From assembly GCF_003333315.1 (NCBI RefSeq), contig NZ_PSYR01000001.1, positions 584,501-648,500 on the forward strand: a stretch of DNA of 64,000 bases. Direction: 5' to 3'. Within the stretch, counting starts at the first letter, position 1. Each line of letters starts with the position of its first letter. This document shows positions 26,327-52,359 of the stretch, piece after piece. Source of the DNA: Acidiferrobacter thiooxydans (GTDB taxonomy: Bacteria; Pseudomonadota; Gammaproteobacteria; Acidiferrobacterales; Acidiferrobacteraceae). Both the position numbers and the translations under genes were made by a program. The notes under the pieces were generated by a model. The model ran no database searches. It was not told where the DNA came from and saw only the letters and a program-made list of their open reading frames with translations.

Positions 26327-26851
26327 ATGGAGAGCGATGCGGCAGAGGTTGATGCGAGGTCTCGGCCGGCGGAAGGTCGGGTTGTAGTCCTCGGTCTCGG
26401 CAATATCCTCCAGAAGGACGACGGGGTCGGCATCCATGCCTTGCGATGGCTTGGGGCCGATCAGGGCCTTGCCCAAACCGCACACTTTGTCGATGGCGGC
26501 ACCGCTAGCTTTACCCTCCTCGAAACAATAGAGTCCACGGAATCCCTGATCGTTCTGGACGCCGTCGTGTTCGACGGTCGGGCCGGCGATGTGCGCGTGT
26601 TCGAAGGGGCCGATATGGACCGATTGCTATCGCGCCGGCAGGCCGGCAGCGTCCATGAGGTCAGTCTGTCCGAGGTCTTGGACATGGCCCGTTTATGTGA
26701 CGGTCTGCCGGTGCGGCGGGCGCTTATTGGCGTGCGGCCAGGAGAGGTCAGCTGGGGCGATACTTTGAGCGCCCCGGCGCATGCCGCCCTGCCGCGGGTG
26801 GGGGCGGAGGTCCGTCGCCTGCTCCGAGGGTGGTGCAATGGCTCTGTCTAA
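26327..26851 (+). CDS. hupD: Hydrogenase maturation protease
   Basis: 174 residues from ATG 26327, with AAGAAGGAT about 8 bases upstream. The N-terminal VVVLGLGNILQKDDGVGIHALRWL contains the nickel-binding acidic residue of HyaD/HupD proteases. LIVLDAVVFDGRAGDVRVFEG gives the second metal-binding Asp, and VHEVSLSEVLDMARL gives the His. The protease clips the C-terminal tail of the large subunit after nickel insertion. First gene of the hydrogenase operon; overlaps the next gene by 14 bp. Confidence 0.9.
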   Translation: MESDAAEVDARSRPAEGRVVVLGLGNILQKDDGVGIHALRWLGADQGLAQTAHFVDGGTASFTLLETIESTESLIVLDAVVFDGRAGDVRVFEGADMDRLLSRRQAGSVHEVSLSEVLDMARLCDGLPVRRALIGVRPGEVSWGDTLSAPAHAALPRVGAEVRRLLRGWCNGSV

Positions 26852-27260
26852 GCGCGTGATCCCCATATATCCCGTAGAGGAGAGGGATCCGGCCGGTACG
26901 GGGGTAGTGGAGGCGCTGATGCGGGAGATCACATCGGCGCTTGCACGCTACGCCCAAGAGCGGGTGGTCCATGTGATCGACCTGACCGCGATGCCGTTAT
27001 CGGATGAGGACAGGAGACGCCTCGACGAGCGCCTTGGGGAAGGCGAGTTGACCATCGACATTCGCTCGCTTCTGCACACGCGCATTGAGGAAACACGCCA
27101 TGCGGGGGTATGGCGAGTACGTCACTGCGAGCCGGATGGCGATGTGCGCAGTGAGCGGATCGAAATCGTCGACGTCCCGCAGATCGTGCGCGCGAGCGAT
27201 GCCGACATCGGGCACAGTGTACGGCGTTTGGCCGCGGCAGCGAGCGAGGAGGGCGCGTGA
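26838..27260 (+). CDS. HupH/HyaF-like hydrogenase expression protein (C-terminal domain only)
   Basis: 140 residues, about half the usual HupH/HyaF length. MREITSALARYAQERVVHVI then LGEGELTIDIRSLLHTRIEETRHAGVWRVRH matches the HupH C-terminal domain (low-complexity LGxGEVx...ExxxPGVWRV pattern). The family assists small-subunit or large-subunit maturation. Position between the protease and structural genes supports this. The GTG of the small-subunit gene overlaps its stop. Confidence 0.7.
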   Translation: MALSKRVIPIYPVEERDPAGTGVVEALMREITSALARYAQERVVHVIDLTAMPLSDEDRRRLDERLGEGELTIDIRSLLHTRIEETRHAGVWRVRHCEPDGDVRSERIEIVDVPQIVRASDADIGHSVRRLAAAASEEGA

Positions 27261-28354
27261 ACGACGAGACCGAGACGATAGGGGGTGTCCTGGAGAAGCG
27301 CGGATTCACGCGCCGGGCCTTCTTGCAGTTGTGTGCCACCGTATCGGCGACGCTGGCCCTGTCGCCGGCGGATGCGGCGGAAATGGCGAGGCGGCTCCAG
27401 TATGCGCCGCGTCCGACGGTCATCTATCTCTCCTATCAGGAATGCACGGGCTGCCTCGAGAGCCTGACGCGGTCGTTTTCACCAGGGCTTGCAAGCCTCA
27501 TCTTCAACGACATTTCGCTGGCCTTCAACGACACGCTGCAGGCGGCGGCCGGAAAGGCCGCCGAGGCCGCCAAGGACGGCGCCATGAAAAAGGCGTGGGG
27601 CAAGTATATTCTGATCGTCGACGGGTCGGTCCCGCTCGACAAGGGCGGGGTCTACTGCACGGTTGCGGGACGTAGTGCCGTGAGCGACCTGAAGCATGCC
27701 GCAAGCGGCGCGGCGGCGGTGGTGGCCGTGGGTACGTGCGCCGCCTTTGGCGGCTTGCCCTACGCGACGCCCAACCCCACCGGGGCCGTGCCGGTCTCCG
27801 AGATCGTGCGCGACCGCCCTATCATTAACGTATCCGGGTGTCCGCCGATCGCGGAGGTCATCACCGGTGTCATCGTGTATTACACGACCTTCGGTTTGCC
27901 GGCCCTGGATCATCTGCGGCGGCCAACCAATTTCTACGCAAACAGCATCCATGACCGGTGCTACCGCCGCCCCTTCTACGACCGCGGAATGTTCGCCAAG
28001 ACCTTCGATGACGAGGGCGCGCGTCAGGGGTGGTGCCTGTTCGAGCTCGGCTGCAAGGGCCCGGTTACGCACAATGCCTGTCCGACCATGAAGTGGAACG
28101 GCGGCACCAGTTTCCCGATCGAATCAGGCCACCCTTGTCTTGGCTGTTCCGAGCCGGGTTTTTGGGACAAGGGCGGTTTCTACCGGCCGTTGTCGGCCCC
28201 GACCGGGCACTGGTCCCGCGCTGGCGTCATCGGCGGCGCGGCCGCGGCCGGCGCGGTGGTGGGCCTTGGCGTGGCCGCGGTCGCCCGATCCCGACAGGAC
28301 CGCGCGCGCAAGAACAGCCACACCGATCCCAACAAAAAGAATCCCCAACCATGA
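27257..28354 (+). CDS. [NiFe] hydrogenase small subunit (Isp-type, group 1e-like)
   Basis: 365 residues from a GTG. A twin-arginine signal (FTRRAFLQLCATV) sends the folded dimer to the periplasm. The proximal cluster motif is QECTGCLES (C63, C66) and the second region is GTCAAFGGLPYATPNPTG. Both places where O2-tolerant enzymes have extra Cys are Gly here, so a standard 4Fe-4S proximal cluster is predicted. Medial and distal cluster Cys/His are in IHDRCYRRP, WCLFELGCKGP, NACPTMKWN and HPCLGCSEPGFWD. A C-terminal membrane anchor (about 320-342) ends the protein. Confidence 0.93.
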   Translation: MNDETETIGGVLEKRGFTRRAFLQLCATVSATLALSPADAAEMARRLQYAPRPTVIYLSYQECTGCLESLTRSFSPGLASLIFNDISLAFNDTLQAAAGKAAEAAKDGAMKKAWGKYILIVDGSVPLDKGGVYCTVAGRSAVSDLKHAASGAAAVVAVGTCAAFGGLPYATPNPTGAVPVSEIVRDRPIINVSGCPPIAEVITGVIVYYTTFGLPALDHLRRPTNFYANSIHDRCYRRPFYDRGMFAKTFDDEGARQGWCLFELGCKGPVTHNACPTMKWNGGTSFPIESGHPCLGCSEPGFWDKGGFYRPLSAPTGHWSRAGVIGGAAAAGAVVGLGVAAVARSRQDRARKNSHTDPNKKNPQP

Positions 28355-28364
28355 GGCACCCGTC

Positions 28365-29027
28365 ATGAATGGCGCAAGTCTGCTGGCATTCGCGCGTGGT
28401 CCCGCCTTCGAAGTGGCCCTGGCGCTGTTGGTTTTCGGTATCGTATGGCGGCTGGTGGGGATTCTGGCCCTCCGGCGGCCGGTGGACCATTCCGAACCGC
28501 GGTCGGGTTCCGGATGGGCAAGCAGCCTGCGCGTCATCGTCTCCCGATCCTGGCCGCGCCGCGAATTCCGTGAGCGGATCCTGCACTGGGATATCGTGAG
28601 CTACCTCTTTCACATCGGTTATGCCGTGGCGATCTTCGGCTACATCCCGCACATCCTGGTGGTGCGCAGCTTGCTTGGATTGCGCTGGCCCGGTCTGCCA
28701 GGCGGGGTGATCGCGTTTGCCGCCGGGATCTCGGCGGTGTCCCTGCTGGCGCTCCTGGGCCACAGGATGACCTCGCCGGTCCTGCGGCGGCTTTCCAATT
28801 TCGACGACTACTTCAGCTGGTTCGTGGCCTTTGTGCCGTTGGTGACGGGTCTTATGGCCTACTACAACATCGGCGGCAGCTATCAGCTTGTTTTGGGTCT
28901 CCATATTCTTTCCGGGGATATCCTCTTCGCGTGGCTGCCCTTCGGAAAAATCATGCACGTCATCCTCTTTGCCTTTTCCCGGGGGACGACGGGGGCCGCC
29001 TATGGGCGGCGGGGGGCGAGCCTATGA
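28365..29027 (+). CDS. Isp1, cytochrome b-like membrane subunit of the hydrogenase
   Basis: 220 residues with about five membrane helices, resembling NarI/DsrM-type diheme cytochrome b. Candidate haem histidines are in LHWDIVSYLFHIGYAVAIFG, ALLGHRM, LGLHILSGD and GKIMHVILF. Isp1 takes electrons from the small subunit and passes them to quinone or to Isp2. It starts 10 bp after the small-subunit gene; its stop overlaps the isp2 start in ATGA. Confidence 0.85.
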   Translation: MNGASLLAFARGPAFEVALALLVFGIVWRLVGILALRRPVDHSEPRSGSGWASSLRVIVSRSWPRREFRERILHWDIVSYLFHIGYAVAIFGYIPHILVVRSLLGLRWPGLPGGVIAFAAGISAVSLLALLGHRMTSPVLRRLSNFDDYFSWFVAFVPLVTGLMAYYNIGGSYQLVLGLHILSGDILFAWLPFGKIMHVILFAFSRGTTGAAYGRRGASL

Positions 29028-30358
29028 CTACGACAACGACCCTGGATGGACCCGCCGGCGCGGTCCGGCCGGTTCCGGACAGGCAGGGCACGCGGCCGGA
29101 TGACGAGCGGTTGGCGTTAGCGACAAAATCGTTTCTGCGGGATCTCAACACGACGACGGCGCTTTACATGGAGTCCTGCGTGCATTGCGGGCAGTGCGCC
29201 GAGGCCTGCCACTACTATGTCCAGACCGGCGACCCCCAATATGTCCCGATCTGGAAGATAGAACTGTTGAAGAGGGCCTACAAGCGGGAGATGGGGCCGC
29301 TTTCGCCACTCTACCGCCTGTTCGGTCTGAAAAAGCGGGTCACCCTGGACGATCTCGAAAAATGGCAGGAGCTCATCTACGACAGCTGCACCATGTGCGG
29401 GCGATGCGCGCTCGTGTGCCCCATGGGCATAGACATCCCGTCGCTCGTTCTGGCTGCGCGGCACGGGATGCAGGCCGCGGGCCTCGTCCCCCACGACCTC
29501 TGGGAGCCTACGGAGCGCGCCGAGCACGAAGGGAGTCCGCTCGGCGCCACGCCCAAGGTCCTGAAGGAGCGCATCGCGTGGCTGGCAGACGACAACGGCG
29601 TGGATATCCCCCTGGATCGTGACCAGGCGGATATCCTGGTCACGGTATCATCGATCGAGATCATGAAATATCCGCAGTCCATCGTCGCGCTCGCCAAGGT
29701 CATGAATCATGTCGGCGCCTCCTGGACCTTCCGCAGCGACGGTTACGAGGCGACCAATTTCAGCATGTTGTCGGGGGATCGCGGGGGGCAGCGCGACGCC
29801 ACCATGCTGCTGATCAACGCGGCGCTGGCCGTCAAGGCCAAGATCGTCATCCTGCCGGAATGCGGGCATGCCTATCAGGCCTTCCGCTGGGCGGGGGCCA
29901 ACGTCTACGGAAAGCCGCTGCCATTTCGTGCGCTCCACATCTCCGAATACATGGCCGAGGAGATTCGCGCCGGACGGCTGACAATGAAACCGGATCCGCG
30001 GTCAATGACGTTCCACGATCCCTGCCAGGTGGCGCGCCGCGGCGGCGTCTGCGAGGCCCCTCGCGAGATATTCAAGGCGCTCGGCGCGGATCTGCATGAG
30101 ATGAGCGCAACGCCGGGGGCGAACTGGTGTTGCGGCGGAGGCGGCGGCGTCGTGACCATACATCGCGCCGATTCCCTACGTCACCGCGTCTTTCACCTGA
30201 AGATGCAGCAAGTGGAAGATACCGGCGCGGACGTCCTGGTATCCAGCTGTTCGAACTGCCGGCTGACGTTCGATGACGGACAGGCCTTCTTTCATTGGGA
30301 CAAGACCGCCCACAGCCTGCTCGAGCTCGTGGCCGACAATCTCGCCGAAAGGCACTGA
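29024..30358 (+). CDS. Isp2, HdrD/DsrK-like iron-sulfur subunit
   Basis: 444 residues. Two 4Fe-4S ferredoxin motifs (CVHCGQCAEACHYY near residue 50 and CTMCGRCALVCPMG near 125) are followed by two CCG-type cysteine-rich domains, visible as CGHAYQAFRWA and WCCGGGGGVV ... SSCSNCRLTFDD. This is the heterodisulfide-reductase D pattern also seen in DsrK. In Isp-type hydrogenases it forms an electron-transfer module with Isp1 between the two structural genes, as here. True start is at 29024, overlapping isp1. Confidence 0.88.
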   Translation: MTTTTTLDGPAGAVRPVPDRQGTRPDDERLALATKSFLRDLNTTTALYMESCVHCGQCAEACHYYVQTGDPQYVPIWKIELLKRAYKREMGPLSPLYRLFGLKKRVTLDDLEKWQELIYDSCTMCGRCALVCPMGIDIPSLVLAARHGMQAAGLVPHDLWEPTERAEHEGSPLGATPKVLKERIAWLADDNGVDIPLDRDQADILVTVSSIEIMKYPQSIVALAKVMNHVGASWTFRSDGYEATNFSMLSGDRGGQRDATMLLINAALAVKAKIVILPECGHAYQAFRWAGANVYGKPLPFRALHISEYMAEEIRAGRLTMKPDPRSMTFHDPCQVARRGGVCEAPREIFKALGADLHEMSATPGANWCCGGGGGVVTIHRADSLRHRVFHLKMQQVEDTGADVLVSSCSNCRLTFDDGQAFFHWDKTAHSLLELVADNLAERH

Positions 30359-30369
30359 GAGACCCGCAC

Positions 30370-32112
30370 ATGGCAAAAAGAACAGTCACGGTGGATCCCG
30401 TCACGCGCATAGAGGGGCATCTGCGCATCCAGGCGGACATGGACGGCTCGGGCGCCATTACCAAGGCATCCAGCTCGGGAACCATGGTGCGCGGCGTGGA
30501 GATCATCCTGCAGGGACGCGATCCGCGCGACGCCTGGGCCTTCGCCCAGCGCATCTGCGGCGTGTGCACGCTGGTGCACGGCATCGCCTCGGTGCGCGCA
30601 GTCGAGGATGCGTTGCATTATCCGATCCCGCGCAACGCCGAGATCATCCGCAACCTGATGATCGCCGCCCAGTTCGTGCACGATCATGTGATGCATTTTT
30701 ACCAACTACACGCCCTGGATTGGGTGGACGCGGTCTCCGCCCTGAAGGGCGATCCGGCGAAGGCGTCCGCGCTGGCACAGTCGATCAGCAATTACCCGCG
30801 GTCGTCGCCGGGCTATTTCTCGGCCGTCAAGGATAAGCTTGCGCGTTTCGTGGATTCCGGACAGCTGGGCATCTTCGCCAACGGCTATTGGGGTAATCCG
30901 GGATACCGGCTGCCGCCTGAGGCCAACCTCATGGCGGTGGCGCATTACCTGGACGCGCTCGCTTGGCAGCGCGAAGTGGCCAAGCTGCACGCGATCTTCG
31001 GCGGCAAGAACCCGCACCCGAATTTCGTTGTGGGTGGGGCGCCGACGGCGATCAGCGTGGGTCCGGGCGAGAAGGGTGATGGCGCGACCGCCGTGGACAT
31101 GACCGGCCTCGAGATCGTGCACGGGGTCATAGGCGAGATCCGCCGCTTTGTGGATCAAGTCTATGTGCCGGATACGCTGGCGATCGCAGGTTTTTACAAG
31201 GACTGGTTCCGCACCGGCGAGGGCGTGGGAAATTTCCTCTCGTACGGGGAATTTCCGGAGAAGTCCATCAACGACCCGGGTAGCTTCATGATCCCGCGCG
31301 GTGCGATCGTCAATCGCGACCTCTCGCACGTCGAAGAGGTCGATTTGCGCGATCCGCGGCAGGTCCAGGAATTCGTGGCCCACTCCTGGTACAGCTATTC
31401 CACGGGCAAGGACAGCGGATTGCACCCGTTCGTTGGCCAGACGACGCTCGATTACACTGGTCCGAAGCCGCCCTACGCGAGCCTCGCCATGGACGCGAGC
31501 TACTCGTGGATCAAGGCGCCGCGCTGGAAGGGCAAGGTCATGGAGGTAGGACCCCTGGCGCGGGTGCTGACGGCCTACGCCCAGGGCAACAAGGAGGTCC
31601 ACGAACTGGTCGGGATGGCCCTGCATAAGCTCGATTTGCCGCCCCGGGCGCTGTTTTCCACGATGGGGCGTACGGCCGCGCGCACGCTCGAGTCGAAATG
31701 GATCGCGGACGCGATGGAGGGGTGGTATCAGGAACTGATGGGCAATATCCGCAAGGGTGAGCTTAAGACCTTCAATGAGACGCTGTGGGAGCCGGATTCA
31801 TGGCCCGCTCGCACCCAGGGGGTAGGTTTTACGGAGGCGCCGCGCGGGGCCCTGGCGCACTGGGTCGTGATCAACGACGGACTGATCGAGAACTACCAGG
31901 CGGTCGTGCCCAGCACCTGGAACGCCGGACCGCGGGACGCGGCCGGACAGGAGGGGCCCTATGAGGCCTCTCTGCGCGGCCTGCGGCTCGCAGTCGCCGA
32001 CCAGCCGCTCGAGATTTTGCGCACGATCCACAGCTTTGACCCCTGTATCGCCTGCGCCGTGCATATGGTCGACCCTGAGGGGGAGGAGATGTTGCAGGTA
32101 AAGGTCGTATAG
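30370..32112 (+). CDS. [NiFe] hydrogenase large subunit
   Basis: 580 residues from MAKRTVTVDPVTRIEGHLRI. Nickel ligands are C63 and C66 in RICGVCTLVHG and C559 and C562 in DPCIACAVH. The protease is predicted to cut after H565, removing a 15-residue tail (MVDPEGEEMLQVKVV). This is the catalytic H2-splitting subunit, exported with the small subunit. The order small subunit, isp1, isp2, large subunit is the hallmark of the Isp/Hyn hydrogenases of purple sulfur bacteria and Aquifex. Confidence 0.95.
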   Translation: MAKRTVTVDPVTRIEGHLRIQADMDGSGAITKASSSGTMVRGVEIILQGRDPRDAWAFAQRICGVCTLVHGIASVRAVEDALHYPIPRNAEIIRNLMIAAQFVHDHVMHFYQLHALDWVDAVSALKGDPAKASALAQSISNYPRSSPGYFSAVKDKLARFVDSGQLGIFANGYWGNPGYRLPPEANLMAVAHYLDALAWQREVAKLHAIFGGKNPHPNFVVGGAPTAISVGPGEKGDGATAVDMTGLEIVHGVIGEIRRFVDQVYVPDTLAIAGFYKDWFRTGEGVGNFLSYGEFPEKSINDPGSFMIPRGAIVNRDLSHVEEVDLRDPRQVQEFVAHSWYSYSTGKDSGLHPFVGQTTLDYTGPKPPYASLAMDASYSWIKAPRWKGKVMEVGPLARVLTAYAQGNKEVHELVGMALHKLDLPPRALFSTMGRTAARTLESKWIADAMEGWYQELMGNIRKGELKTFNETLWEPDSWPARTQGVGFTEAPRGALAHWVVINDGLIENYQAVVPSTWNAGPRDAAGQEGPYEASLRGLRLAVADQPLEILRTIHSFDPCIACAVHMVDPEGEEMLQVKVV

Positions 32113-32144
32113 TGGGGCCAAGGTCGCAGGGCGGTGGAGGGGCG

Positions 32145-32483
32145 ATGCACGAAATGGCGTTGTGCGAGCGTCTGGTGGCGATTATAGAGGGCGAGGCCGT
32201 GTCCGGGAGCTTTCGTCAGGTGTACAGCGTCAGTCTCGAGGTGGGCTTCCTCGCCGGAGTGGAGAAGGATGCGCTTCAGTTCGGCTTCCAGGCGGTGACG
32301 CGCGGTACGGTGGCGGAAGGTGCCGTGTTACGGATCCTGCCCGCGGCCGCACAGGCGGAATGCCCATTATGTGGCTGGCAGCAGACCGTGTCGGAGCCCA
32401 TCAGGCTATGCCCGGTGTGCGATGGCCCGTTGAGCTTGAGCGGCGGACGCGAGCTGCGCATCAAGGAGATGGAAGTGGAGTAG
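32145..32483 (+). CDS. hypA: Nickel-delivery protein HypA
   Basis: 112 residues beginning MHEMALCERLV, which provides the N-terminal nickel-binding Met-His-Glu. A zinc site of two CxxC pairs (CPLC and CPVC) follows. HypA hands nickel to the large subunit with HypB. Start chosen at the ATG of MHE, 32 bp after the large-subunit stop. Confidence 0.93.
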   Translation: MHEMALCERLVAIIEGEAVSGSFRQVYSVSLEVGFLAGVEKDALQFGFQAVTRGTVAEGAVLRILPAAAQAECPLCGWQQTVSEPIRLCPVCDGPLSLSGGRELRIKEMEVE

Positions 32484-32505
32484 TCTGCCAAATGGGGGTG
32501 GGGTG

Positions 32506-33366
32506 ATGTGCGGCGTGTGCGGATGTGGTGGCAGCGATCATAAGCATGAACGTGACCACGACCATGGGCACGATCATGGGCACGACCCTCGGCAGGACAC
32601 GGCCAGGATGCACGCGAGGCGCGATTCCTCCGGGGATCTCCCGCGTTTTACCCACGCGCCTGGGTTGTCGGTACGGCGCATGGTGCAGGTCGAGCAGGAT
32701 CTGCTCGCCCAGAATCAGGGATACGCGGACCGCAACCGGCATTCCTTCGAGGGGCGCCGGGTCTTTACCCTGAATCTCATGTCCAGTCCCGGTTCCGGGA
32801 AGACGACGCTGCTTGTCCGGACCATAGAGGCTATGCGTGCCGCCGGCGCCGTTGCCGTCATCGAAGGCGACCAGCAGACGGATCGGGATGCGCGCCGCAT
32901 CGGCGAAACCGGCGTACCGGTTCACCAGATCAACACCGGCCGCGGATGCCATCTCGATGCCCACGGTGTGGGGCACGCCTGCGCAAAACTGCCGATCGCC
33001 GATCACGGTACGCTCTTTATCGAAAACGTCGGCAACCTCGTGTGCCCCGCAGGCTTCGACCTGGGGGAGGCACGGCGGGTCGTCGTCTTGTCCGTGACGG
33101 AAGGCGAGGATAAGCCGCTCAAGTATCCTGATATGTTTCGCGCGGCCGATGCGATGATCCTGAATAAGGTCGACCTGCTTCCCTACGTCGAGTTCGATGT
33201 CGATGCGTGCTGCGCGCATGCGCGTTCGATCAATCCGCGTCTCGCGACGTTGACGGTGTCGGCCACCCGCGGGGACGGGCTTTGGGAGTGGCTGGCATGG
33301 CTCGCCGCCGAGCGCGCCCGGTGGGAGCGGGGCTGCGGCCCGGTGAGTGGTGCGGCTGATGGATGA
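32506..33366 (+). CDS. hypB: HypB, nickel-binding GTPase
   Basis: 286 residues. The N-terminus MCGVCGCGGSDHKHE and a His-rich stretch (DHDHGHDHGHD) bind nickel. The GTPase has P-loop NLMSSPGSGKTTLLVRT, EGDQQTDRDA, the metal-binding HLDAHGV and NKVDLLPY. A GTG directly before the ATG is an alternative start. The His-rich tract suggests nickel storage as well as insertion. Ends 4 bp into hypF. Confidence 0.94.
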   Translation: MCGVCGCGGSDHKHERDHDHGHDHGHDPRQDTARMHARRDSSGDLPRFTHAPGLSVRRMVQVEQDLLAQNQGYADRNRHSFEGRRVFTLNLMSSPGSGKTTLLVRTIEAMRAAGAVAVIEGDQQTDRDARRIGETGVPVHQINTGRGCHLDAHGVGHACAKLPIADHGTLFIENVGNLVCPAGFDLGEARRVVVLSVTEGEDKPLKYPDMFRAADAMILNKVDLLPYVEFDVDACCAHARSINPRLATLTVSATRGDGLWEWLAWLAAERARWERGCGPVSGAADG

Positions 33367-35729
33367 TTGGTGTTATGGTTGACCTCATGGACCCCAGGCC
33401 GCGGCAAGACCGGTACGACGGCGATAACATCAGGCATTGGCGGGTGCGCGTGCGCGGCCGAGTACAAGGGGTAGGGTTCCGGCCCTTCATATATTGCCGC
33501 GCGACCGAGCTCGCGCTGGCCGGCTGGATCCGCAACGATGCGAGTGGTGTGGTCATGGAGATCCAGGGGCCCCTGCCGGCCCTGGACAGGTTCGTGAGCG
33601 CACTCTCGGCCGATGCACCCCCTTTGGCCCGTGTCGAGCGGGTCGATATAGAGGAGCAGGAGGTGGCGGCCGGGCTCCACGGCTTTGCTATCCGCCAAAG
33701 CGTGGGGGGCCGCATCGACACGGCGATCCCTATGGATGCCGCCACATGCGGCGCATGCCTGTCCGAGATCTTCGATACCGGCGATCGCCGCTATCGGTAC
33801 CCCTTCATCAACTGCTCGCATTGCGGTCCGCGCTATTCCATTGTGACCGCACTGCCCTATGATCGGCATAACACGGCCATGGCGCCCTTTGCGCTGTGCG
33901 AGGAGTGCCGGACGGAATATGAAGGGCCGACCGACCGCCGTTTCCATGCCGAACCCGTAGCCTGCGCGGCCTGCGGCCCGCGATTGGCGCTGTGGGATGC
34001 GAACGGACAGGAGCAGGCCGTGGGTGATGTGATCGCCGCGGCGTGGTCCCTCATGCGCGAAGGCGCGATCGTTGCGGTCAAGGGCATCGGCGGGTTTCAC
34101 CTCATGTGCGATGCCCGCAACGCCGCGACCGTCGCCGCGCTGCGCCGCCGCAAGGGGCGCCTGGACAAGCCCTTTGCGCTGCTCGCGCTCAATGCCGGAT
34201 CGCTTCGGCATGTGGCGCATGTGGGCGGCGGCGAACGCCATGCGCTCGAAGGCGCCGATCGCCCGATTGTGTTGCTGCGCAAGGCCGCCGATTGTGATGG
34301 GCAGCTTGCGGGCATCGCCGACGGGCTCGATCGCATCGGCGTCATGCTCGCCTACACCCCGATCCATTATCTGTTGTTTCACGAGGCCGCCGGCCGCCCG
34401 TCCGGGACGCAGTGGCTACGTGGGGTCGAGGAGACGCTGTTTGTCTGTACGTCGGCGAATCCCGGCAGCGAGCCTTTGGTAACCGGCAACGAGGAGGCGC
34501 TTGCGCGGCTTTCCGGATTGGCGGATGCCTTCGTCGTCCACGACCGGGCGATCGTGTCGCGTTGCGACGACGGAGTGGTTCGTGCCGATGGCAGCGGCGC
34601 GGTGTGGATGCGCCGCGGCCGCGGCCAGACACCGTCATCCATCCGTCTGCGGATCTCGGGGCCCGCGGTGCTCGCGGTGGGCGCGATGCTGAAGAACACG
34701 ATCTGCGTGACCCGCGGCGACGAGGCCTTTGTGTCGCCGCACGTGGGGGATCTCGGCAATCGCCGGGCCTATGAGGCCTTCGAGGACACCATGGCGTCGC
34801 TGACCGGCCTTCTTGGGGTAGATCCGCAGTGCGTAACCCATGATAGGCATCCGGATTATCCCAGTACCCTCTACGCCGAGCGGCTGGCCGCGGAGCGCGG
34901 GATTGTGCGCATCGCCGTTCAGCATCATCACGCCCACATCGCCGCCGTTCTGGCCGAGCACGGCTTGCCCGGACCGGCATTGGGGGTCGCCCTGGATGGA
35001 GTCGGTTATGGCACCGGCGGGGAGATGTGGGGTGGGGAGCTTTTATCGGTGCAGGGTGCGCACTTTACGCGCCTTGGCCGTATGGCGCCATTGCCGCTAC
35101 CCGGGGGAGACCGGGCGGCGCGCGAGCCTTGGCGCATGGCGGCGTCGGTCCTGCACCTGCTGGGCCGCGGCGCCGAGATCCGGCATCGCTTCCATGACCC
35201 GGCCACCTCGGTCGTGGCGCGAATGCTCGAGCGCCGGATCAATGCCCCTTTGTCGACCGGCGCCGGGCGCCTGTTCGACGCCGCAGCGGCCCTGCTCGGG
35301 GTGTGCGAGTACGCGAGCTACGAGGGACAGGCGGCGATGATGCTGGAAGGGCTGGCCGCCCGGTTCGGGCCGTTGAAGCCGCTGGAGGCCGGTTACACGA
35401 TCACCGGCGACGGCGAGCTCTCGCTTCTGCCCACGCTCGATTTCCTGCGCACATGCCCGGATCCGGCGGGTGGCGCCGCGCTTTTTCATGCGACGCTGGC
35501 GGCCGGTCTTGCGGCCTGGGTCGGGCGGGCGGTGGAACAGACGGGGCTGCGGCAGGTGGCGCTCTCGGGCGGCTGTTTTGCGAACGGCATTCTGCGGCAA
35601 CATGTGCGCTTAGCCCTCGAGGCGCAAGGGGTGTCCGTCTATGGCGCCACGCAGGTGCCACCCAACGACGGGGGCTTGAGTCTGGGCCAGGCGTGGGTGG
35701 CGCTCCACACCATGCAAGAGGGGGCGTAA
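33363..35729 (+). CDS. hypF: HypF, carbamoyltransferase for cyanide-ligand synthesis
   Basis: 788 residues, normal length. Order: acylphosphatase domain (VRGRVQGVGFRPFIYC), two zinc fingers (CGACLSEI ... CSHCGPRYS and CEECRTEY ... CAACGPRL), YrdC-like domain (GAIVAVKGIGGFHLMCDA, KPFALLALN), and Kae1-like carbamoyl-transfer domain (VQHHHAHIAAVLAEH, ALDGVGYGTGGEMWGGE, VALSGGCFANG). It uses carbamoyl-phosphate and ATP to charge the C-terminal Cys of HypE. Later in-frame ATGs at 33375 and 33387 are possible starts. Confidence 0.96.
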   Translation: MIGVMVDLMDPRPRQDRYDGDNIRHWRVRVRGRVQGVGFRPFIYCRATELALAGWIRNDASGVVMEIQGPLPALDRFVSALSADAPPLARVERVDIEEQEVAAGLHGFAIRQSVGGRIDTAIPMDAATCGACLSEIFDTGDRRYRYPFINCSHCGPRYSIVTALPYDRHNTAMAPFALCEECRTEYEGPTDRRFHAEPVACAACGPRLALWDANGQEQAVGDVIAAAWSLMREGAIVAVKGIGGFHLMCDARNAATVAALRRRKGRLDKPFALLALNAGSLRHVAHVGGGERHALEGADRPIVLLRKAADCDGQLAGIADGLDRIGVMLAYTPIHYLLFHEAAGRPSGTQWLRGVEETLFVCTSANPGSEPLVTGNEEALARLSGLADAFVVHDRAIVSRCDDGVVRADGSGAVWMRRGRGQTPSSIRLRISGPAVLAVGAMLKNTICVTRGDEAFVSPHVGDLGNRRAYEAFEDTMASLTGLLGVDPQCVTHDRHPDYPSTLYAERLAAERGIVRIAVQHHHAHIAAVLAEHGLPGPALGVALDGVGYGTGGEMWGGELLSVQGAHFTRLGRMAPLPLPGGDRAAREPWRMAASVLHLLGRGAEIRHRFHDPATSVVARMLERRINAPLSTGAGRLFDAAAALLGVCEYASYEGQAAMMLEGLAARFGPLKPLEAGYTITGDGELSLLPTLDFLRTCPDPAGGAALFHATLAAGLAAWVGRAVEQTGLRQVALSGGCFANGILRQHVRLALEAQGVSVYGATQVPPNDGGLSLGQAWVALHTMQEGA

Positions 35730-35731
35730 GG

Positions 35732-35977
35732 ATGTGTCTTGCCGTACCAATGCGTGTGGAGCGGGTCCTCGCGGACGATCTGGCGGTGGTGGAGATCGGC
35801 GGGGTGCGCAAAACGGTGTCGCTGGCGCTTGTCGACGGCGTGGCCGAGGGCGATTACGTCATTGTCCATGTCGGATTCGCGCTCACGCGGCTCAATGCCG
35901 ACGAGGCGCGCAAGACCCTCGATCTATTCGCCGAGATCGCGCAGGTGGCCGGTACCGGTAGCCTGGAAGGCCCATAA
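35732..35977 (+). CDS. hypC: HypC, iron-carrier chaperone
   Basis: 81 residues beginning MCLAVPMRVERVLADDL. The N-terminal Met-Cys binds the Fe(CN)2CO precursor and the large subunit together with HypD. The central GDYVIVHVGFAL is the family core. Two bp follow the hypF stop. Confidence 0.95.
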   Translation: MCLAVPMRVERVLADDLAVVEIGGVRKTVSLALVDGVAEGDYVIVHVGFALTRLNADEARKTLDLFAEIAQVAGTGSLEGP

Positions 35978-36287
35978 ACCATCCTGCGACTGAAGGCCGC
36001 AGGCGTTATTCTGGAGACAACCGCGATGGCGCATGCAGCGAACGGACCGGGGATCGACAGACAGGCCGGGGCGTGCCTCCTGAGGCATTTCCCGGTCGGG
36101 CGGCAGCGGTTGCCAAGTCGCGCCACCGGGTCCGTATCCCGTGCGATAGCCTCCCGGCCATCGGCTTGCGCCGGCCATCCCTCGTTATTGGGTCACATCA
36201 CCAAGCGACAGGGGGGACGTGGGCGGCTTAGGGATTGTACCGCGATTCCTCCCGCGACCGAGGCCGCGGGTTTCCTTGCGAGGGCCC
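35978..36287. other. 310-bp gap inside the hyp cluster
   Basis: The only sizeable gap between hypA and the nickel permease gene. I see no convincing gene; an open frame on the plus strand has no family pattern and poor codon structure. It may hold a second promoter for hypD-hypE-hypX or a relic. Confidence 0.4.
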
Positions 36288-37448
36288 ATGAAATTCATCG
36301 ATGAATTCCGTGATGGCCGCGTGGCGGCCTCCCTGGCGCACAGGATTCACGCCGACGTCATACCGGGGCGCAGCTACCATATCATGGAATTTTGCGGAGG
36401 CCACACGCATGCGATTGCGCGCTACGGTCTGCCCGATCTCCTGCCGGCGTCGATCCGTCTCGTGCACGGACCCGGGTGCCCGGTGTGTGTGTTGCCGGTC
36501 GGCCGGATCGACAGCGCCATCGCGTTGGCCCGCGACGCCGGTGTGATTCTCTGCACCTATGCCGACGTCATGCGCGTGCCGGCCTCGCGTCGCCAAAGTC
36601 TCCTGACCACGAAGGCGGCGGGCGCCGACATCGTAATGGTGTATTCCGTGCAGGATGCGCTTTCCGTGGCGCGTGCGCACCCGAATCGCGAGGTGGTGTT
36701 CTTTGCCATCGGGTTCGAGACTACGACCCCGCCTACGGCGGCGGCGATCCTCGAGGCCGAGCGCGCGGGGCTTGGCAATTTCAGCGTGTTCTGCAACCAC
36801 GTGCTCACGCCGTCGGCCATCCAGAGCCTGCTCGATTCCCCGGAAGTCCGCAAGCTGGGGCGCGTGCGTATCGACGGATTCATCGGTCCCTCGCATGTAA
36901 GCGCGGTGATTGGCAGCCGGCCGTACGAATTTTTTGCGGAGGAATACGAAAAGCCGGTGGTAATCGCCGGTTTCGAGCCGCTCGATGTCTTGCAGGCGGT
37001 GTGGATGCTGGTGCGGCAGATCAACGAAGGACGGTGCGATGTGGAAAACCAATTCACGCGGGCGGTGACCAGGGACGGCAATCTCAAGGCGCAGGCCCTG
37101 GTCGGCCGGGTGTTCGAACTGGCGCGTACCTTCGAGTGGCGGGGTCTGGGCGACGTGCCCTATAGCGCGCTGCGTATCCAGGGGCGCTATGCCCGCTTCG
37201 ATGCCGAGCCACGCTTTGGTGTGCGCTATGAGGGCGCGCCGGATCACAAGGGATGCGAGTGCGGGGCCATCCTGCGCGGCGTAAAGCAGCCCGAGGATTG
37301 CCGGCTTTTTGGCACCGCCTGCGTGCCGGAGAACCCTATGGGTTCGTGCATGGTCTCGTCCGAAGGCGCCTGCGCCGCGCACTATACCTACGGGCGCTAC
37401 CGGCGCGATACGGCGGCCGCGAGACGCCGCGCGGCGGGCGCGTCATGA
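36288..37448 (+). CDS. hypD: HypD, Fe(CN)2CO assembly scaffold
   Basis: 386 residues from MKFIDEFRDGRVAASL. Conserved parts are MEFCGGHTHAIARYGL, VHGPGCPVCVLPVGRID, FFAIGFETTTP, FIGPSHVSAVIG and the 4Fe-4S-ligating cysteines near the C-terminus (GCECGAILRG, CRLFGTACVPENPMGSCMVSSEGACAAHY). It transfers CO and cyanide to iron with HypC and HypE. The frame is open upstream, but MKFIDE is the family start. Confidence 0.95.
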   Translation: MKFIDEFRDGRVAASLAHRIHADVIPGRSYHIMEFCGGHTHAIARYGLPDLLPASIRLVHGPGCPVCVLPVGRIDSAIALARDAGVILCTYADVMRVPASRRQSLLTTKAAGADIVMVYSVQDALSVARAHPNREVVFFAIGFETTTPPTAAAILEAERAGLGNFSVFCNHVLTPSAIQSLLDSPEVRKLGRVRIDGFIGPSHVSAVIGSRPYEFFAEEYEKPVVIAGFEPLDVLQAVWMLVRQINEGRCDVENQFTRAVTRDGNLKAQALVGRVFELARTFEWRGLGDVPYSALRIQGRYARFDAEPRFGVRYEGAPDHKGCECGAILRGVKQPEDCRLFGTACVPENPMGSCMVSSEGACAAHYTYGRYRRDTAAARRRAAGAS

Positions 37449-38494
37449 ATACCCGTGTGCGACGCCACGCCCGGGCGCTTGATCTGCGTCAGGGACGCAT
37501 CGACATGAACCACGGCAGCGGCGGGCGCGCGACCACGCAGCTCGTCGAAGAGCTCTTTCTGAGCGCATTCGATAACGAGTGGCTGCGCCCGATGGATGAT
37601 CAGGCGCGCTGCGACCTGCCGGCCGGGCGGCTGGTGGTGGCAACCGATGCCCACGTCGTGTCTCCGCTCTTTTTTCCAGGCGGGGACATCGGCGCCCTGG
37701 CGGTCCACGGGACGATCAACGATGTGGCGATGGCCGGCGCGACGCCCCTGTACTTGACCGCGGGCTTCATCCTGGAGGAGGGGCTGCCGCTCGCCGACCT
37801 TAAGAGGATCGCGGATTCGATGGCGGAGGCGGCGCGGTCGGCGGGGGTGGCGATCATAGCCGGGGACACCAAGGTCGTGGAGCGGGGAAAGGCCGACGGC
37901 GTCTTTATCACCACGACCGGTGTCGGGGTCGTGGATCCGGCCCTCGACATCCATGCCCATCGGGCGCGGCCCCGGGATTGTATTCTGGTCAGTGGATCCA
38001 TGGGTGACCACGGTGTGGCGATCATGTCGGAGCGCGAGCATCTGTCATTCGACGCGCGCATCCTGTCGGATAGCGCGGCGCTGCACGGGCTTGTCGCGGA
38101 TATGGTCCGGGCCGTGCCGGCCATCCATTGCCTGCGCGATCCGACCCGCGGGGGGCTTGCCACGGCCTTGAACGAGATCGCCGAGCAGTCCGGCGTGGGC
38201 ATGCGCATCCGCGAATCAGCCATTCCGATTCGCGCCGAGGTCCGGGCGGCCTGCGAGTTTCTGGGTCTCGATCCCCTCTATATCGCCAACGAAGGCAAAC
38301 TCATCGCCATTTGTTCGGCCGATGATGCCGGGGCGCTGCTTGCGGTGATGCGCGCGCACCCCTTGGGCGCGCAGGCGGCGATCATAGGCGAGGTGGTCGC
38401 GGATACCCTGCATTTCGTGGAAATGGAGACGGCATTCGGGGGCAGCCGCATGGTGGATTGGCTGGCCGGCGACCCGCTGCCGCGTATCTGCTGA
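37445..38494 (+). CDS. hypE: HypE, thiocyanate-forming dehydratase
   Basis: 349 residues. The glycine-rich MNHGSGGRATTQLVEELF and the AIR-synthase-like folds (VATDAHVVSPLFFPGGDIG, HGTINDVAMAGA, DPTRGGLATALNEIA) are clear. The protein ends in PRIC, whose terminal Cys receives the carbamoyl group from HypF and becomes the cyanide donor. It overlaps hypD by ATGA. Confidence 0.96.
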   Translation: MNTRVRRHARALDLRQGRIDMNHGSGGRATTQLVEELFLSAFDNEWLRPMDDQARCDLPAGRLVVATDAHVVSPLFFPGGDIGALAVHGTINDVAMAGATPLYLTAGFILEEGLPLADLKRIADSMAEAARSAGVAIIAGDTKVVERGKADGVFITTTGVGVVDPALDIHAHRARPRDCILVSGSMGDHGVAIMSEREHLSFDARILSDSAALHGLVADMVRAVPAIHCLRDPTRGGLATALNEIAEQSGVGMRIRESAIPIRAEVRAACEFLGLDPLYIANEGKLIAICSADDAGALLAVMRAHPLGAQAAIIGEVVADTLHFVEMETAFGGSRMVDWLAGDPLPRIC

Positions 38495-38501
38495 GGTGCG
38501 C

Positions 38502-40235
38502 ATGCGTATCCTGCTCCTGGTCGAAGCCTTCAATAGCCTGAGTCAGCGGGTGTACGCCGAGCTTACCCGCGATGGGCATGAGTTGGCCGTGGAGTTCGAT
38601 GTGCACGATGCCGCCACCGAGGAGGGGGTGGCGTTGTTTGGGCCCGATGTGGTCGTTGCCCCCTATCTCAAGCGGGCCATACCGCGCAGCGTCTGGAGCC
38701 GCTATCCGTGTCTGATCATCCATCCCGGCATCCCGGGGGACCGCGGCCCGTCGGCGCTCGACTGGGCCATTCTGGAGGAACAAACCGAGTGGGGCGTGAC
38801 CGTCTTGCAGGCCAACGAGGAGCTCGATGGTGGCGATATATGGGCCTACGAGACATTTCCCATGCGGGTCGCGCCCAAAAGCAGCCTGTATAGGCAGGAG
38901 GTGACGGAGGCCGCCGTCACGGCGCTGCGCCGGGCGCTGGCGCTCTACGCCGACAAGACGCTAAGGCCGCGGCCGCAGGGCGATCTCGCGGCCTGCGCGG
39001 ATATCCCGCGTGGCCGCGCGCATCGGCCGATGACGCAGGCCGATCGCGCCATCGATTGGGCGACCGATACCACCGCGACCGTGCTGAAGAAGATCCATGC
39101 CGCGGATGGTGCGCCGGGCGTGCGCGATTGGGTCTGCGGCCGGGCCGTATATCTCTACGGCGCGTGGCCTGAGGACGGGCTGCGCGGCATGCCGGGCATG
39201 CTGATCGCTCAGCGCGACGGGGCGGTGTGCCGGGCGACCCGCGACGGTGCGGTCTGGATCACCCACATGCAGGCCGCCGAGGCCGCCGGCCGAGGCCTGA
39301 AGCTGCCGGCGGCGGTGGTGCTCGGCGCGGCGGTCGCCGATCTTGCGCACATCCCGCTTGCCTGCGAACGGGTAGGGGCTTGGCAGGAGATCGCTTGGCA
39401 AAGGGAGGGGGACGTCTGCCATCTGCGGTTCGGTTTCTACAACGGCGCGATGAGCAGCGATCAATGCCGGCGTCTCGCCGACGCCTACCGTAAGGCGCGC
39501 GCGTCCGATGCGCGAGTGATCGTCTTGCATGGGGGGTCCGATTACTGGTCCAACGGCATCCACCTGCACATGATCGAGGCGGCGGCGAGTCCCGCCGACG
39601 AGTCGTGGCGCAACATCGAGGCGATGGACGATCTGGTTCTGGAAATCCTATCGAACGATCGGCAGCTGACCATCGCGGCCTTGTCCGGAAACGCGGCCGC
39701 AGGCGGCGTGTTTCTCGCGCTGGCCGCCGACGCGGTCTTTGCCCGGCTGGGTGTGATCCTGAACCCGCATTACAAGAACATGGGCAATCTGTACGGTTCT
39801 GAATACTGGACCTATCTTCTGCCGCGGCGCCTGGACGCCACGGCGTGTGAATGGCTGCGCGCCGGCCGGCTGCCGGTGGATGCCGCCACGGCGGCGGCGA
39901 TCGGTTTGGTCGATGGGGCCTTTGGGCGCACGCCCCGGGAGTTCGCGGATGGCATCAGCCGTTTGGCGCGCGCCTGGGCGCATCCGGCGGTCTGGTCGGA
40001 ACGGATGGCGCGCAAGGGGGAAGGCCGTGGCCGCGACGAGGCGCAGAGGCCGCTTGCGCTTTACCGGGCCGATGAGTTGACCCACATCCACCGCAATTTC
40101 TACGGATTCGATCGCAGCTACCATGTGGCGCGCTATCATTTTGTGCACAAGACGCCGCACTCGCGCACGCCTTTGTATCTGGCCCCCCACCGTCGCATGG
40201 CATCGATGGGTGCCGCGCGAGGGGCGCGGTCATGA
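38502..40235 (+). CDS. hypX: HypX/HoxX, aerobic CO-ligand synthase
   Basis: 577 residues with two fused parts. An N-terminal formyl-transferase-like domain contains HPGIPGDRGPSALDWAI and a formyltetrahydrofolate-type active site. A C-terminal enoyl-CoA-hydratase (crotonase) domain contains ALSGNAAAGGVFLALAAD and NPHYKNMGNLYGSEYW. HypX makes the hydrogenase CO ligand from a formyl group and is reported where hydrogenases must mature in air. A GTG at 38496 is an alternative start. It overlaps the permease start by ATGA. Confidence 0.92.
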   Translation: MRILLLVEAFNSLSQRVYAELTRDGHELAVEFDVHDAATEEGVALFGPDVVVAPYLKRAIPRSVWSRYPCLIIHPGIPGDRGPSALDWAILEEQTEWGVTVLQANEELDGGDIWAYETFPMRVAPKSSLYRQEVTEAAVTALRRALALYADKTLRPRPQGDLAACADIPRGRAHRPMTQADRAIDWATDTTATVLKKIHAADGAPGVRDWVCGRAVYLYGAWPEDGLRGMPGMLIAQRDGAVCRATRDGAVWITHMQAAEAAGRGLKLPAAVVLGAAVADLAHIPLACERVGAWQEIAWQREGDVCHLRFGFYNGAMSSDQCRRLADAYRKARASDARVIVLHGGSDYWSNGIHLHMIEAAASPADESWRNIEAMDDLVLEILSNDRQLTIAALSGNAAAGGVFLALAADAVFARLGVILNPHYKNMGNLYGSEYWTYLLPRRLDATACEWLRAGRLPVDAATAAAIGLVDGAFGRTPREFADGISRLARAWAHPAVWSERMARKGEGRGRDEAQRPLALYRADELTHIHRNFYGFDRSYHVARYHFVHKTPHSRTPLYLAPHRRMASMGAARGARS

Positions 40236-41329
40236 GGCTGCAAGGCGCGGCACGATGGGCGCGCCTTGGCTACGGACCCTTGGGCGTGGTGGCGGTCCTG
40301 AACGGGCTCGCGCTGTGCGGCTTGTGGGATCTGCGCGCGCTGGGCCCCGCGGCCGTCGGGATGGGTGTGCTGGCCTATGGTTTCGGGCTGCGGCATGCCT
40401 TCGATCTCGACCACATCACGGCGATCGACACCGTGACGCGGGCGTTGCGCGATGGCCGCCGGAGATCCTCGGGCGTCGGCTTGTATTTCTCGCTCGGCCA
40501 TTCGTCGGTTGTGATGCTGTTTTCGTTGTTGGTAGCGACGATCGTGCGCCAGACATCACCCACTATGGCCTGGCTGTCGCATACCGGGGCCCTGACGGGT
40601 ACGGCCGTGTCGGCGGCGTTCCTGCTCGTCATGGGCGGCAGCAATCTGGCGATCCTGCTCCGTCCGGGGCGTCTGGGAGACCGGGCCCACGGGAGGACCT
40701 CCCCGCGGCCGGTAAGGCAGGCGGGCGGCTTGCTTGTGCACGTCCTGTCGGCCGTGTTTCGCTTGGTGCGCCGCGACTGGCAGATGTATTTCGTCGGAGC
40801 GCTGTTTGGCCTGGGATTCGATACGGCAACCGAGGTCGCGGTGCTCGGCGTGTCGGCGGCGATGGCCCGGCACGGCGCCGTGTCGCTTGCCCAGATCATG
40901 GTATTCCCCCTGCTTTTTACCGCCGGCATGACCTTGCTCGACACGCTTGACGGGCTTGCTGTGGCGCGCCTCTACGACTGGGCGGTGCGTAATCCCGGGC
41001 ACAGAGATCGCCTGAACAGGGCCTTGACCGGTTGCGGGGTACTGGTGGCGTTCATGGTCAGTATCTGGGAGTGGACGCGGTTATGGGGCGCCACCCAGGG
41101 CGTATTGACCGCATCGAAGAGTCCAGGCAGTCTGGATTTCAGTGCCGCAGGCGGGATGTTCACGGCGGTCTTGCTGGCCGCGTGGCTCGTGGGGTGGCTC
41201 TGGTATCGGAGAGGCGCGGCCGCTTGCGCGGCGGGTCCGCAGGCGCCATCCACAAAAGGCGCGATCGAAACGACGGATGCGCAGGCTCCTGCCTCAGATC
41301 AAATGGCGATGGACGCCGACGTGAACTGA
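40232..41329 (+). CDS. High-affinity nickel/cobalt permease, NiCoT family
   Basis: 365 residues with about eight membrane helices. The helix-II signature appears as [17 protein letters not shown] (family H-A-x-D-x-D-H-I). Further family signatures are [12 protein letters not shown] and [16 protein letters not shown]. It imports nickel for the hydrogenase. The last gene of the hydrogenase run; an 80-bp gap precedes xfp. Metal preference (Ni or Co) cannot be read from sequence alone; the context favours nickel. Confidence 0.92.
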
Positions 41330-43783: not shown

Positions 43784-43823
43784 GGCTGCCATCGGCCCGT
43801 GTTTCAGGGGCCGTCTGGCAGCC
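43784..43823 (+). terminator. Hairpin after xfp
   Basis: GGCTGCCA at 43784-43791 pairs with TGGCAGCC at 43816-43823, and inside it CGGCCC pairs with GGGCCG. The hairpin starts 8 bases after the xfp stop. There is no T-run, so efficiency is unclear. Its right arm includes the first bases of the duplicated ackA segment. Confidence 0.45.
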
Positions 43824-44124
43824 GGTGGCTGTGCCGGGCAATCATCAGGTCTTCGTGCGTAGGGATGACGCGCACCGTGACCGGACTGCCGGGCGCGGAG
43901 ACGGTGTCCGCGTTGCGGATGTTGGCGTCATTGTCGAGGACGACGCCGAGATGACCCAGACCCTGGGCGATGGCGTGGCGCACCGGTGCGGCATGCTCGC
44001 CGATGCCGCCGGTAAAGACCAACGTATCGACGCCGTTCATGGCCGCGGCTAGGGCGCCGGCTGCCTTGCACGCCTGATAGCAGATCATGTCGACGGCTTG
44101 GGCGGCCTGGGGTCCGTGGTGCGT
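43804..44124 (-). pseudogene. Truncated 3' fragment of an acetate kinase gene (second copy)
   Basis: About the last 100 codons of acetate kinase, read leftward: CYQACKAAGALAAAMNGVD, TLVFTGGIGEHAAPVRHAIA, VRVIPTHEDLMIARHSHRL. It is nearly base-for-base identical to the 3' end of the complete gene at 47326-48501, but the extreme C-terminus differs (PDGP instead of LDPL) and it has no 5' part. It cannot make an enzyme. Confidence 0.9.
43818..44124. repeat. Long direct repeat, left copy (ackA 3' end)
   Basis: Matches 47340-47647 over about 307 bp. I count only three mismatches or so plus one 1-base length difference in a G run. The two copies are in the same orientation, 3.52 kb apart, and enclose the P-type ATPase gene. 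Confidence 0.93.
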
Positions 44125-52348: not shown

Positions 52349-52359
52349 GGATGAGAGGC

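Follow-up and report, generated by a model that had tools for sequence, protein, structure and literature searches.

The DNA studied here is a stretch of 64,000 nucleotides from Acidiferrobacter thiooxydans (assembly GCF_003333315.1, contig NZ_PSYR01000001.1, positions 584,501-648,500 of the forward strand), which we call the window and whose positions we use throughout. Between 26327 and 41329, all on the + strand, lies an operon of 14 genes in the order hyaD-hupH-hynS-isp1-isp2-hynL-hypABFCDE-hypX-nicO, identified by Pfam and NCBIfam profiles and by homology. It encodes a [NiFe]-hydrogenase that we assign to group 1e (Isp-type), together with the maturase HypX, which is probably paired with a HypX-dedicated HypC-HypD scaffold (HypCD) that includes a candidate site for handing over carbon monoxide (CO). 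Most neighbouring genes overlap by 4-14 bases or sit at most 35 bases apart, and the single wide intergenic space, of 310 bases, is upstream of hypD. Because the co-oriented genes are mostly overlapping or closely spaced, we retain the operon limits of an initial annotation of this DNA, 26327-41329. Six genomes of the family have these genes. In four of them (the window's, G013, G016 and G017) all 14 are present in the same order, G014 has 13 of the 14 (the 4.6 kb that follow hypX give no match to nicO), and in G004 the contig stops inside hypX. The arrangement is not due to chance, since its order is kept in the family genomes. Promoter and terminator scans of the operon region give a signal near the level of shuffled sequence.

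The first gene, hyaD (26327-26851), encodes a HyaD/HupD-type endopeptidase for the C-terminus of the large subunit, above the cut-off for both HycI (63.7 bits) and TIGR00072 (117.1 bits), with an ATG preceded by AAGGA. It is followed by hupH (26838-27260), whose product has a HupH_C domain (Pfam, 102.6 bits), and by the small-subunit gene hynS (27257-28354; TIGR00391, 395.6 bits, above the cut-off; top PDB match 3MYR_A), whose product reads as beginning with a twin-arginine start and whose motifs are given below. Between hynS and isp2, isp1 (28365-29027, start taken from the translation) would encode a membrane subunit resembling b-type cytochromes; its matches to TmcC/HmcE and Nitrate_red_gam are below the cut-offs. 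The isp2 product (29024-30358) is an HdrD/DsrK-like iron-sulfur protein with CCG and Fer4 domains above the cut-off and a DsrK-like match of 227 bits below it. The large-subunit gene hynL (30370-32112) matches NiFeSe_Hases at 757.9 bits and 3MYR_B at 864.6 bits, and its product ends in DPCIACAVH plus a tail of the cleavable kind. Two starts are corrected from the translations, to ATG 30370 for hynL and ATG 32145 for hypA. The maturation genes are hypA (32145-32483; Pfam HypA, 88.9 bits), hypB (32503-33366; Pfam cobW, 75.3 bits, with a His-rich N-terminus in the sequence), the carbamoyltransferase gene hypF (33363-35729; TIGR00143, 723.4 bits, above the cut-off), hypC (35732-35977; TIGR00074, 84.3 bits, above the cut-off), hypD (36288-37448; E = 7.8e-81 to T. 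kodakarensis HypD, 2Z1D), which a tree and residue tests place in a HypX-associated kind, and hypE (37445-38494), recognised by homology in the operon maps and relatives; in E. coli, hypE also follows hypD. hypX (38502-40235, alternative start 38496) encodes a CO-forming maturase that uses formyl-tetrahydrofolate (formyl-THF) and coenzyme A (CoA), as assigned by its match to 6J0P and its five catalytic residues, and nicO (40232-41329) a NicO/HoxN-type nickel permease (Pfam NicO, 194.4 bits, above the cut-off; TIGR00802, 237.9 bits, below its cut-off).

The small subunit carries the motifs E-C63-T-G65-C66 and G-T-C161-A-A-F-G-G166, which give a 4-Cys proximal cluster. Gly65 (27449-27451) and Gly166 (27752-27754) align with the extra cysteines of C. 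necator HoxK (5MDJ_S). The initial annotation had read an Isp-type hydrogenase with a standard proximal cluster and glycine at both extra-cysteine positions of the 6-Cys cluster, and this reading holds, with isp1-isp2 between the two subunit genes. Among PDB entries, HynS ranks 3MYR (395 bits) above a C. necator HoxK entry in which both positions are Gly (338 bits) and HoxK with Cys (330 bits), and HynL ranks 3MYR (865 bits) above the next entry, 4C3O (725 bits). A phylogeny of the large subunit, which had been suggested with that annotation, agrees: in a tree of 32 rows, the window protein falls in a 17-row clade with Allochromatium vinosum 3MYR (support 98/97), outside the adjacent O2-tolerant group 1d clade of three rows, namely E. 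coli HyaB plus the large subunit of each of two 6-Cys enzymes (support 100/99). The PDB ranking, the tree and the position of isp1-isp2 between the subunit genes are why we assign the enzyme to group 1e.

The presence of HypX in the operon is also confirmed. The alignment of the protein to Aquifex HypX (6J0P) spans residues 2-568 of 579 (E = 6.6e-174), and the five residues with catalytic roles assigned in PMC6802093 are all present, as H76, D82, D111, Y426 and E436 (numbered from 38496). Both the N-terminal formyltransferase triad and the C-terminal Tyr/Glu pair are thus found. Across 101 HypX rows (100 distinct; the one repeat alters no column count when removed), the five positions are invariant except for one Asp replaced by Asn. 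In the genome, of 3.25 Mb in 4 contigs and 99.93% complete, we find one full [NiFe] large subunit (758 bits) and one HypX. A second HypX match of 37 bits covers the N-terminal part only and looks like an ordinary formyltransferase. With one large subunit and one HypX in the genome, HypX serves the 4-Cys group 1e enzyme or nothing that we found, and that enzyme is the only candidate client found. We rejected a second, O2-tolerant hydrogenase as the client: the only other PF00374 match has 40.7 bits over 74 positions and is probably NuoD.

Two side observations concern the naming and distribution of HypX. Of the 32 NCBIfam matches of the window HypX (38502-40235), the 25 shown all fall below their cut-offs, and the best models are methionyl-tRNA formyltransferase and CoA hydrolase/hydratase, so the gene is easily misnamed in annotation. 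HypX-like genes also occur with no annotated hyp genes within 8 kb, as on the Mycetohabitans plasmid pBRH01 (L374:8004-9758), near genes for an acyl carrier protein (ACP) and an amino acid-ACP ligase, and on the Acaryochloris plasmid pREC3 (L373:8001-9734), among unrelated genes. These two genes might provide a CO or formyl step like that of HypX to some other pathway.

The 6-Cys cluster sits in the small subunit, and HypX acts on the Fe(CN)2CO unit of the active site. We compared HypX and cluster type in two samples, 60 relatives (the order sample) and 369 evenly drawn genomes of the class, which share a few genomes (among those used, G000, G004, G023 and G028). The E-value limits were 1e-30 for HypX and 1e-40 for small subunits, at which remote hydrogenases are missed, and "1e-like" denotes at least 55% identity to the window small subunit. 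Among the relatives, 18 have a full-length or near-full HypX, and the remaining matches are weak and partial. Sixteen of these 18 have a small subunit, always 4-Cys (14 at 60-100% identity to the window HynS, two at 46 and 48%); the two others, without a small-subunit match, are genomes 75 and 77% complete. A 1e-like small subunit without HypX occurs in five relatives (G020, G025, G028, G041 and G051). The 25 small subunits typed in the relatives include a single 6-Cys one, in a genome of the window's own genus that lacks HypX (G005). In that genome (L245, L246), the 6-Cys hydrogenase falls in the 1d clade, and there are also a hyp set and another hydrogenase-like pair; its second small-subunit match (2e-16) is outside the typed set.

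In the class, HypX occurs in 5 of 26 genomes with a 6-Cys enzyme and in 6 of 34 with a 1e-like 4-Cys enzyme and no 6-Cys (Fisher p = 1.0), which rejects HypX as a marker of 6-Cys enzymes. It also occurs in 4 of the 7 genomes with only other 4-Cys enzymes; six further HypX genomes, with no small-subunit match, are outside this 26/34/7 table. The initial annotation had set the 4-Cys cluster against the presence of HypX as an unexpected combination. The finding of a group 1e hydrogenase operon with HypX is real, and the contrast is false: HypX is equally frequent with 1e-like 4-Cys and with 6-Cys enzymes. HypX makes a ligand of the active site common to all [NiFe] enzymes (PMC12134894), and the independence of HypX from the proximal cluster agrees with this biochemistry. 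HypX is no marker of O2-tolerant catalysis, and its presence says nothing about the O2 resistance of the finished enzyme. That the enzyme is matured in air and perhaps works at low O2 seems a fair reading.

HypX is found inside or beside a 1e operon in the six family genomes, in a genome of another family of the same order (G036), in a Rhodanobacteraceae metagenome-assembled genome (L101) and in a genome of another family of the class (G273); in others (G021, G070 and G301 are examples) the two are apart. On a 58-row HypX tree, the 1e-linked state needs four changes, at least two of them across well-supported branches, which disfavours a single origin of HypX beside 1e hydrogenases; one gain with some losses of the linkage may also account for the pattern. 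In the same tree, the clade of the window HypX is separate from the HypX of other families in its order. A literature search, whose coverage took in few of the subscription papers, returned no paper joining HypX with a group 1e hydrogenase or isp2.

What does go with HypX is the kind of HypD. In the order sample, HypD is found in 28 of the 60 genomes, and all 18 genomes with HypX have a HypD 66-100% identical to that of the window. Among the 10 genomes with HypD and no HypX, nine have it at 34-43% identity (in two pieces in G051) and G005 at 64%. The association has a Fisher p of 1.4e-6, or 3.4e-6 without the window's family. HypE and HypF behave differently. Throughout the window's family, the hyp set belongs entirely to the window's kind. 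Of the 12 HypX genomes outside it, 11 have a recognised HypE, 45-47% identical to the window's, and 11 a HypF, at 41-44%, with a HypF in two pieces of 41 and 51% in G032; in the HypX-less genomes except G005, HypE is at 44-47% (8 found) and HypF at 41-45% (9 found; pieces of 42 and 33% in G051). Since the identities split by HypX for HypD only, HypD, with HypC beside it where seen, appears to have switched with HypX, without a matching switch in HypE and HypF. In the class, at a 64% line chosen after the data were seen, HypD is at or above the line in 20 of 21 HypX genomes versus 9 of the 121 HypX-less genomes with HypD (Fisher p = 1.7e-16). A further 14 HypX genomes have no HypD at the locus; 12 of them have a HypD at 61-73% and two show none. 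A 123-row HypD tree, which took in 32 of the named loci, has a divergent clade of 29 rows without HypX and three with it (G133, and the second copies of G403 and G396, two genomes that carry both HypD kinds). The HypX label needs 10 changes on this tree against a shuffle mean of 41, a comparison in which near-copies make any label cluster. Divergent HypDs read CGGHER in place of CGGHTH and have P in place of H before GPGCPVC (columns 35-40 and 59-68), and they have two extra cysteines, invariant or nearly so, at columns 68 and 254; these column numbers run one lower than our HypD numbering, in which Met1 is at 36288.

Within HypD, a few residues follow HypX closely. The window HypD has R188 (36849-36851), F216 (36933-36935), E219 (36942-36944) and Y292 (37161-37163) together, with the signature string RGFEVYS. 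In a first set of 87 HypX-linked HypD rows (83 distinct), on which the residues were chosen, R188, F216, E219, V224, Y292 and S353 are present in all 87. In HypX-less HypDs of the same broad kind, Y292 is present in none of 35 and E219 in 5 of 35; in the divergent kind, the counts are 0 and 1 of 32. Later HypX genomes and plasmids were read afterwards. All 12 HypD copies of the further HypX genomes (11 distinct from earlier rows) fit the signature, as do those of six plasmids with an intact HypX (C. necator pHG1, Variovorax, R. leguminosarum, Rhizobium T1470, Bradyrhizobium 53351 and Acidovorax) and two with a broken HypX (M. huakuii and Bradyrhizobium 187). In six plasmids without HypX (R. 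etli Mim1, Rhizobium NXC14, S. mexicanum, R. jaguaris and two Azospirillum), E219 is changed in all six, F216 in five and Y292 in three. In R. etli Mim1, glycine replaces E219. More distant HypDs, from HypX-less plasmids of Thermus, Afipia and Alteromonas, are without the signature. The plasmid rows were picked by hand (19 from the 60 listed of 122 HypD records, and 3 from another 43), with HypX searched for in the plasmid record alone. The rhizobial hyp clusters among them include four without HypX (L355, L356, L358 and L367) and two with a truncated or split HypX (L359 and L362). Since two relatives carry broken copies, HypX was likely lost from the rhizobial plasmids without it.

Pooling 105 HypX-linked HypD rows (100 distinct; removing the five repeats alters no column count), 102 columns are invariant, E219 and Y292 among them. 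In 19 related HypX-less rows, which we grouped by hand into nine lineages from the HypD tree and, for plasmids, by relatedness, 81 of these 102 columns never change. E219 is changed in 16 rows and Y292 in 16, both in 13 and at least one in all 19, with R188 changed in 12 and F216 in 9. As a control, we took the columns at least 98% conserved with HypX in other Hyp proteins. In HypC, HypE and HypB, they are changed in at most one HypX-less row each (3-4 rows available), and in HypF in at most two of three, the related R. etli Mim1 and NXC14, compared with six of six for HypD E219. In an AlphaFold model of the window HypD (mean predicted local distance difference test score 78.9), R188 lies at a helix end, F216 shares a helix with E219, and Y292 is part of a strand. 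The E. coli equivalents of E219 and Y292 by alignment are D217 and S290, which are not among the HypD residues that the passages of PMC11565642 on the Fe(CN)2CO unit place around it; this fits an outer or docking role for E219 and Y292. We do not claim novelty for the signature.

The following mechanism would account for these observations. The operon would encode one periplasm-facing group 1e hydrogenase, HynSL, and everything needed to build it, with electrons passing from HynSL through Isp2 and Isp1 to the quinone pool, as family knowledge suggests. HypX makes CO from formyl-THF via formyl-CoA (PMC12134894, PMC6802093). The window HypX, with the residues conserved, would likewise move the formyl group of N10-formyl-THF to CoA and release CO, as shown for homologues, and this CO would go into an Fe(CN)2CO unit made while the cell respires oxygen. 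HypX would work with a HypC-HypD scaffold of its own kind, in which E219 and Y292, with R188 and F216, may form or shape the contact with HypX and the path of CO to the iron on HypCD. The finished 4-Cys enzyme would be expected to suffer inhibition by O2 and to be active when O2 is low or once it has been reactivated. We consider this explanation as a whole, an operon-encoded 1e enzyme and a HypX-dedicated HypCD scaffold with an E219/Y292 contact, likely. A wider proposal is tentative, possible rather than probable: that outside Actinobacteria HypX works only with a cognate HypC-HypD, that hypC-hypD-hypX is a transferable cassette which displaces the native HypCD and frees any [NiFe]-hydrogenase, O2-sensitive Isp enzymes included, from needing anoxia for its maturation, and that the docking or CO hand-over site is formed by E219/Y292 together with R188/F216.

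Several results weigh against a HypX-specific HypD, and some of them favour inheritance, by which hypC-hypD-hypX travel as neighbours and the residues mark a clade and not a contact. The HypD kinds are deep clades in the HypD tree, hypC, hypD and hypX are usually in one cluster, and in the order sample hypD is beside or one gene from hypX in 18 of the 18 HypX genomes, so the association is partly linkage. In the class, nine genomes lacking HypX reach the 64% line with their HypD. G133 has a lone HypX (45-46% identity; L338:2079-3758), whose 6 kb of retrieved sequence match none of the other operon proteins, and the only HypD found in this genome is divergent (38%). Three actinobacterial plasmids with HypX (Kitasatospora, Embleya and Streptantibioticus) carry another HypD without the signature. 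E219 is kept in five HypX-less HypDs of the broad kind (G255, G126, G290, G005 and L309), and Y292 in the HypX-less R. etli Mim1, Rhizobium NXC14 and R. jaguaris. The HypX-associated HypD kind is thus not in every HypX lineage, and the rule is not universal. Inheritance alone leaves out, however, that in HypX-less HypDs nested in or near the HypX clade E219, Y292 or both are changed in 19 of 19 rows while 81 of the 102 invariant columns stay fixed, and that in Rhizobium and Sinorhizobium plasmid HypDs 83-90% identical to that of R. leguminosarum, E219 is changed where HypX is absent. The neighbours HypC and HypE show no such change, on 4 HypX-less rows only. We think inheritance alone unlikely, if far from negligible.

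Two other readings concern the enzyme and HypX itself. The enzyme might be O2-tolerant by a route other than the 6-Cys cluster, with HypX as part of a fully aerobic knallgas life. Alteromonas HynSL is described as partially tolerant, up to 1-3% O2 (PMC3102683), and aerobic growth on H2 induces hynS, isp2 and hynL of At. ferrooxidans (PMC7735108); the window enzyme, however, has no 6-Cys cluster and a large subunit outside group 1d, and HydDB, as quoted in PMC7735108, describes group 1e as O2-sensitive, with some members tolerating microoxic conditions. A tolerant enzyme seems to us unlikely. It is very improbable that HypX has become a functionless relic in this genome or that what it serves is not a hydrogenase. 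Lone HypX-like genes do exist, next to acyl-carrier genes in Mycetohabitans and with no annotated hyp genes nearby in Acaryochloris, but the window HypX has its catalytic residues intact and a place behind hypE kept in six family genomes, and two rhizobial plasmids display what a decaying HypX looks like by comparison.

The coupling of HypX to HypCD is the part that deserves specialist attention. For the step of hydrogenase maturation in which CO gets to the iron on HypCD, a continuous tunnel from HypX to HypCD has been proposed, with structural work on the complex still needed (PMC6802093), and direct CO transfer from HypX to the iron on HypCD has been called presumable (PMC12134894). HypD residues that are kept only with HypX open this step to tests by point mutation. 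HypX has been added with the C. necator hyp genes for a hydrogenase in an aerobic host (PMC9100943), and for hydrogenase production in aerobic hosts a matching HypCD may be required. In ecology, HypX must not be taken as a marker of an O2-tolerant enzyme.

Downstream of the operon, Pfam identifies a phosphoketolase (41410-43776, + strand) 80 bases after nicO and a full acetate kinase (47326-48648, - strand). Between them, at 43804-44088 on the - strand, is what we take from its translation to be an acetate-kinase-like C-terminal fragment. A cellulose synthesis cluster (50102-58620) follows; it contains a PilZ-bearing cellulose-synthase-like glycosyltransferase, BcsC and a glycosyl hydrolase of family 8.

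Compared with known systems, the hydrogenase is closest to A. vinosum HydSL (3MYR), which likewise has a 4-Cys small subunit and is the nearest PDB structure for both subunits. The order S-isp1-isp2-L is that of Thiocapsa HynSL and At. ferrooxidans Hyn (PMC3102683, PMC7735108); different from known group 1e systems is that hypABFCDE-hypX-nicO continues in one line. The five order-sample genomes that have a 1e-like small subunit but lack HypX carry, in contrast, the divergent HypD, at 34-43% identity. The HypX/HoxX proteins of C. necator and Aquifex (6J0P) have the same two domains and five catalytic residues, and on C. necator pHG1 HypX is also placed behind hypE; unlike in those systems, the sole client found in the window genome is a 4-Cys group 1e enzyme. 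Aquifex HypC, HypD and HypX form a complex in gel filtration, probably 1:1:1, on which a CO-channel hypothesis has been built (PMC6802093). The HypX-HypCD partnership of that ternary-complex proposal is the same as the one suggested here; its passages on the complex name no HypD residues, whereas the evolutionary evidence presented here points to E219, Y292, R188 and F216 of HypD.

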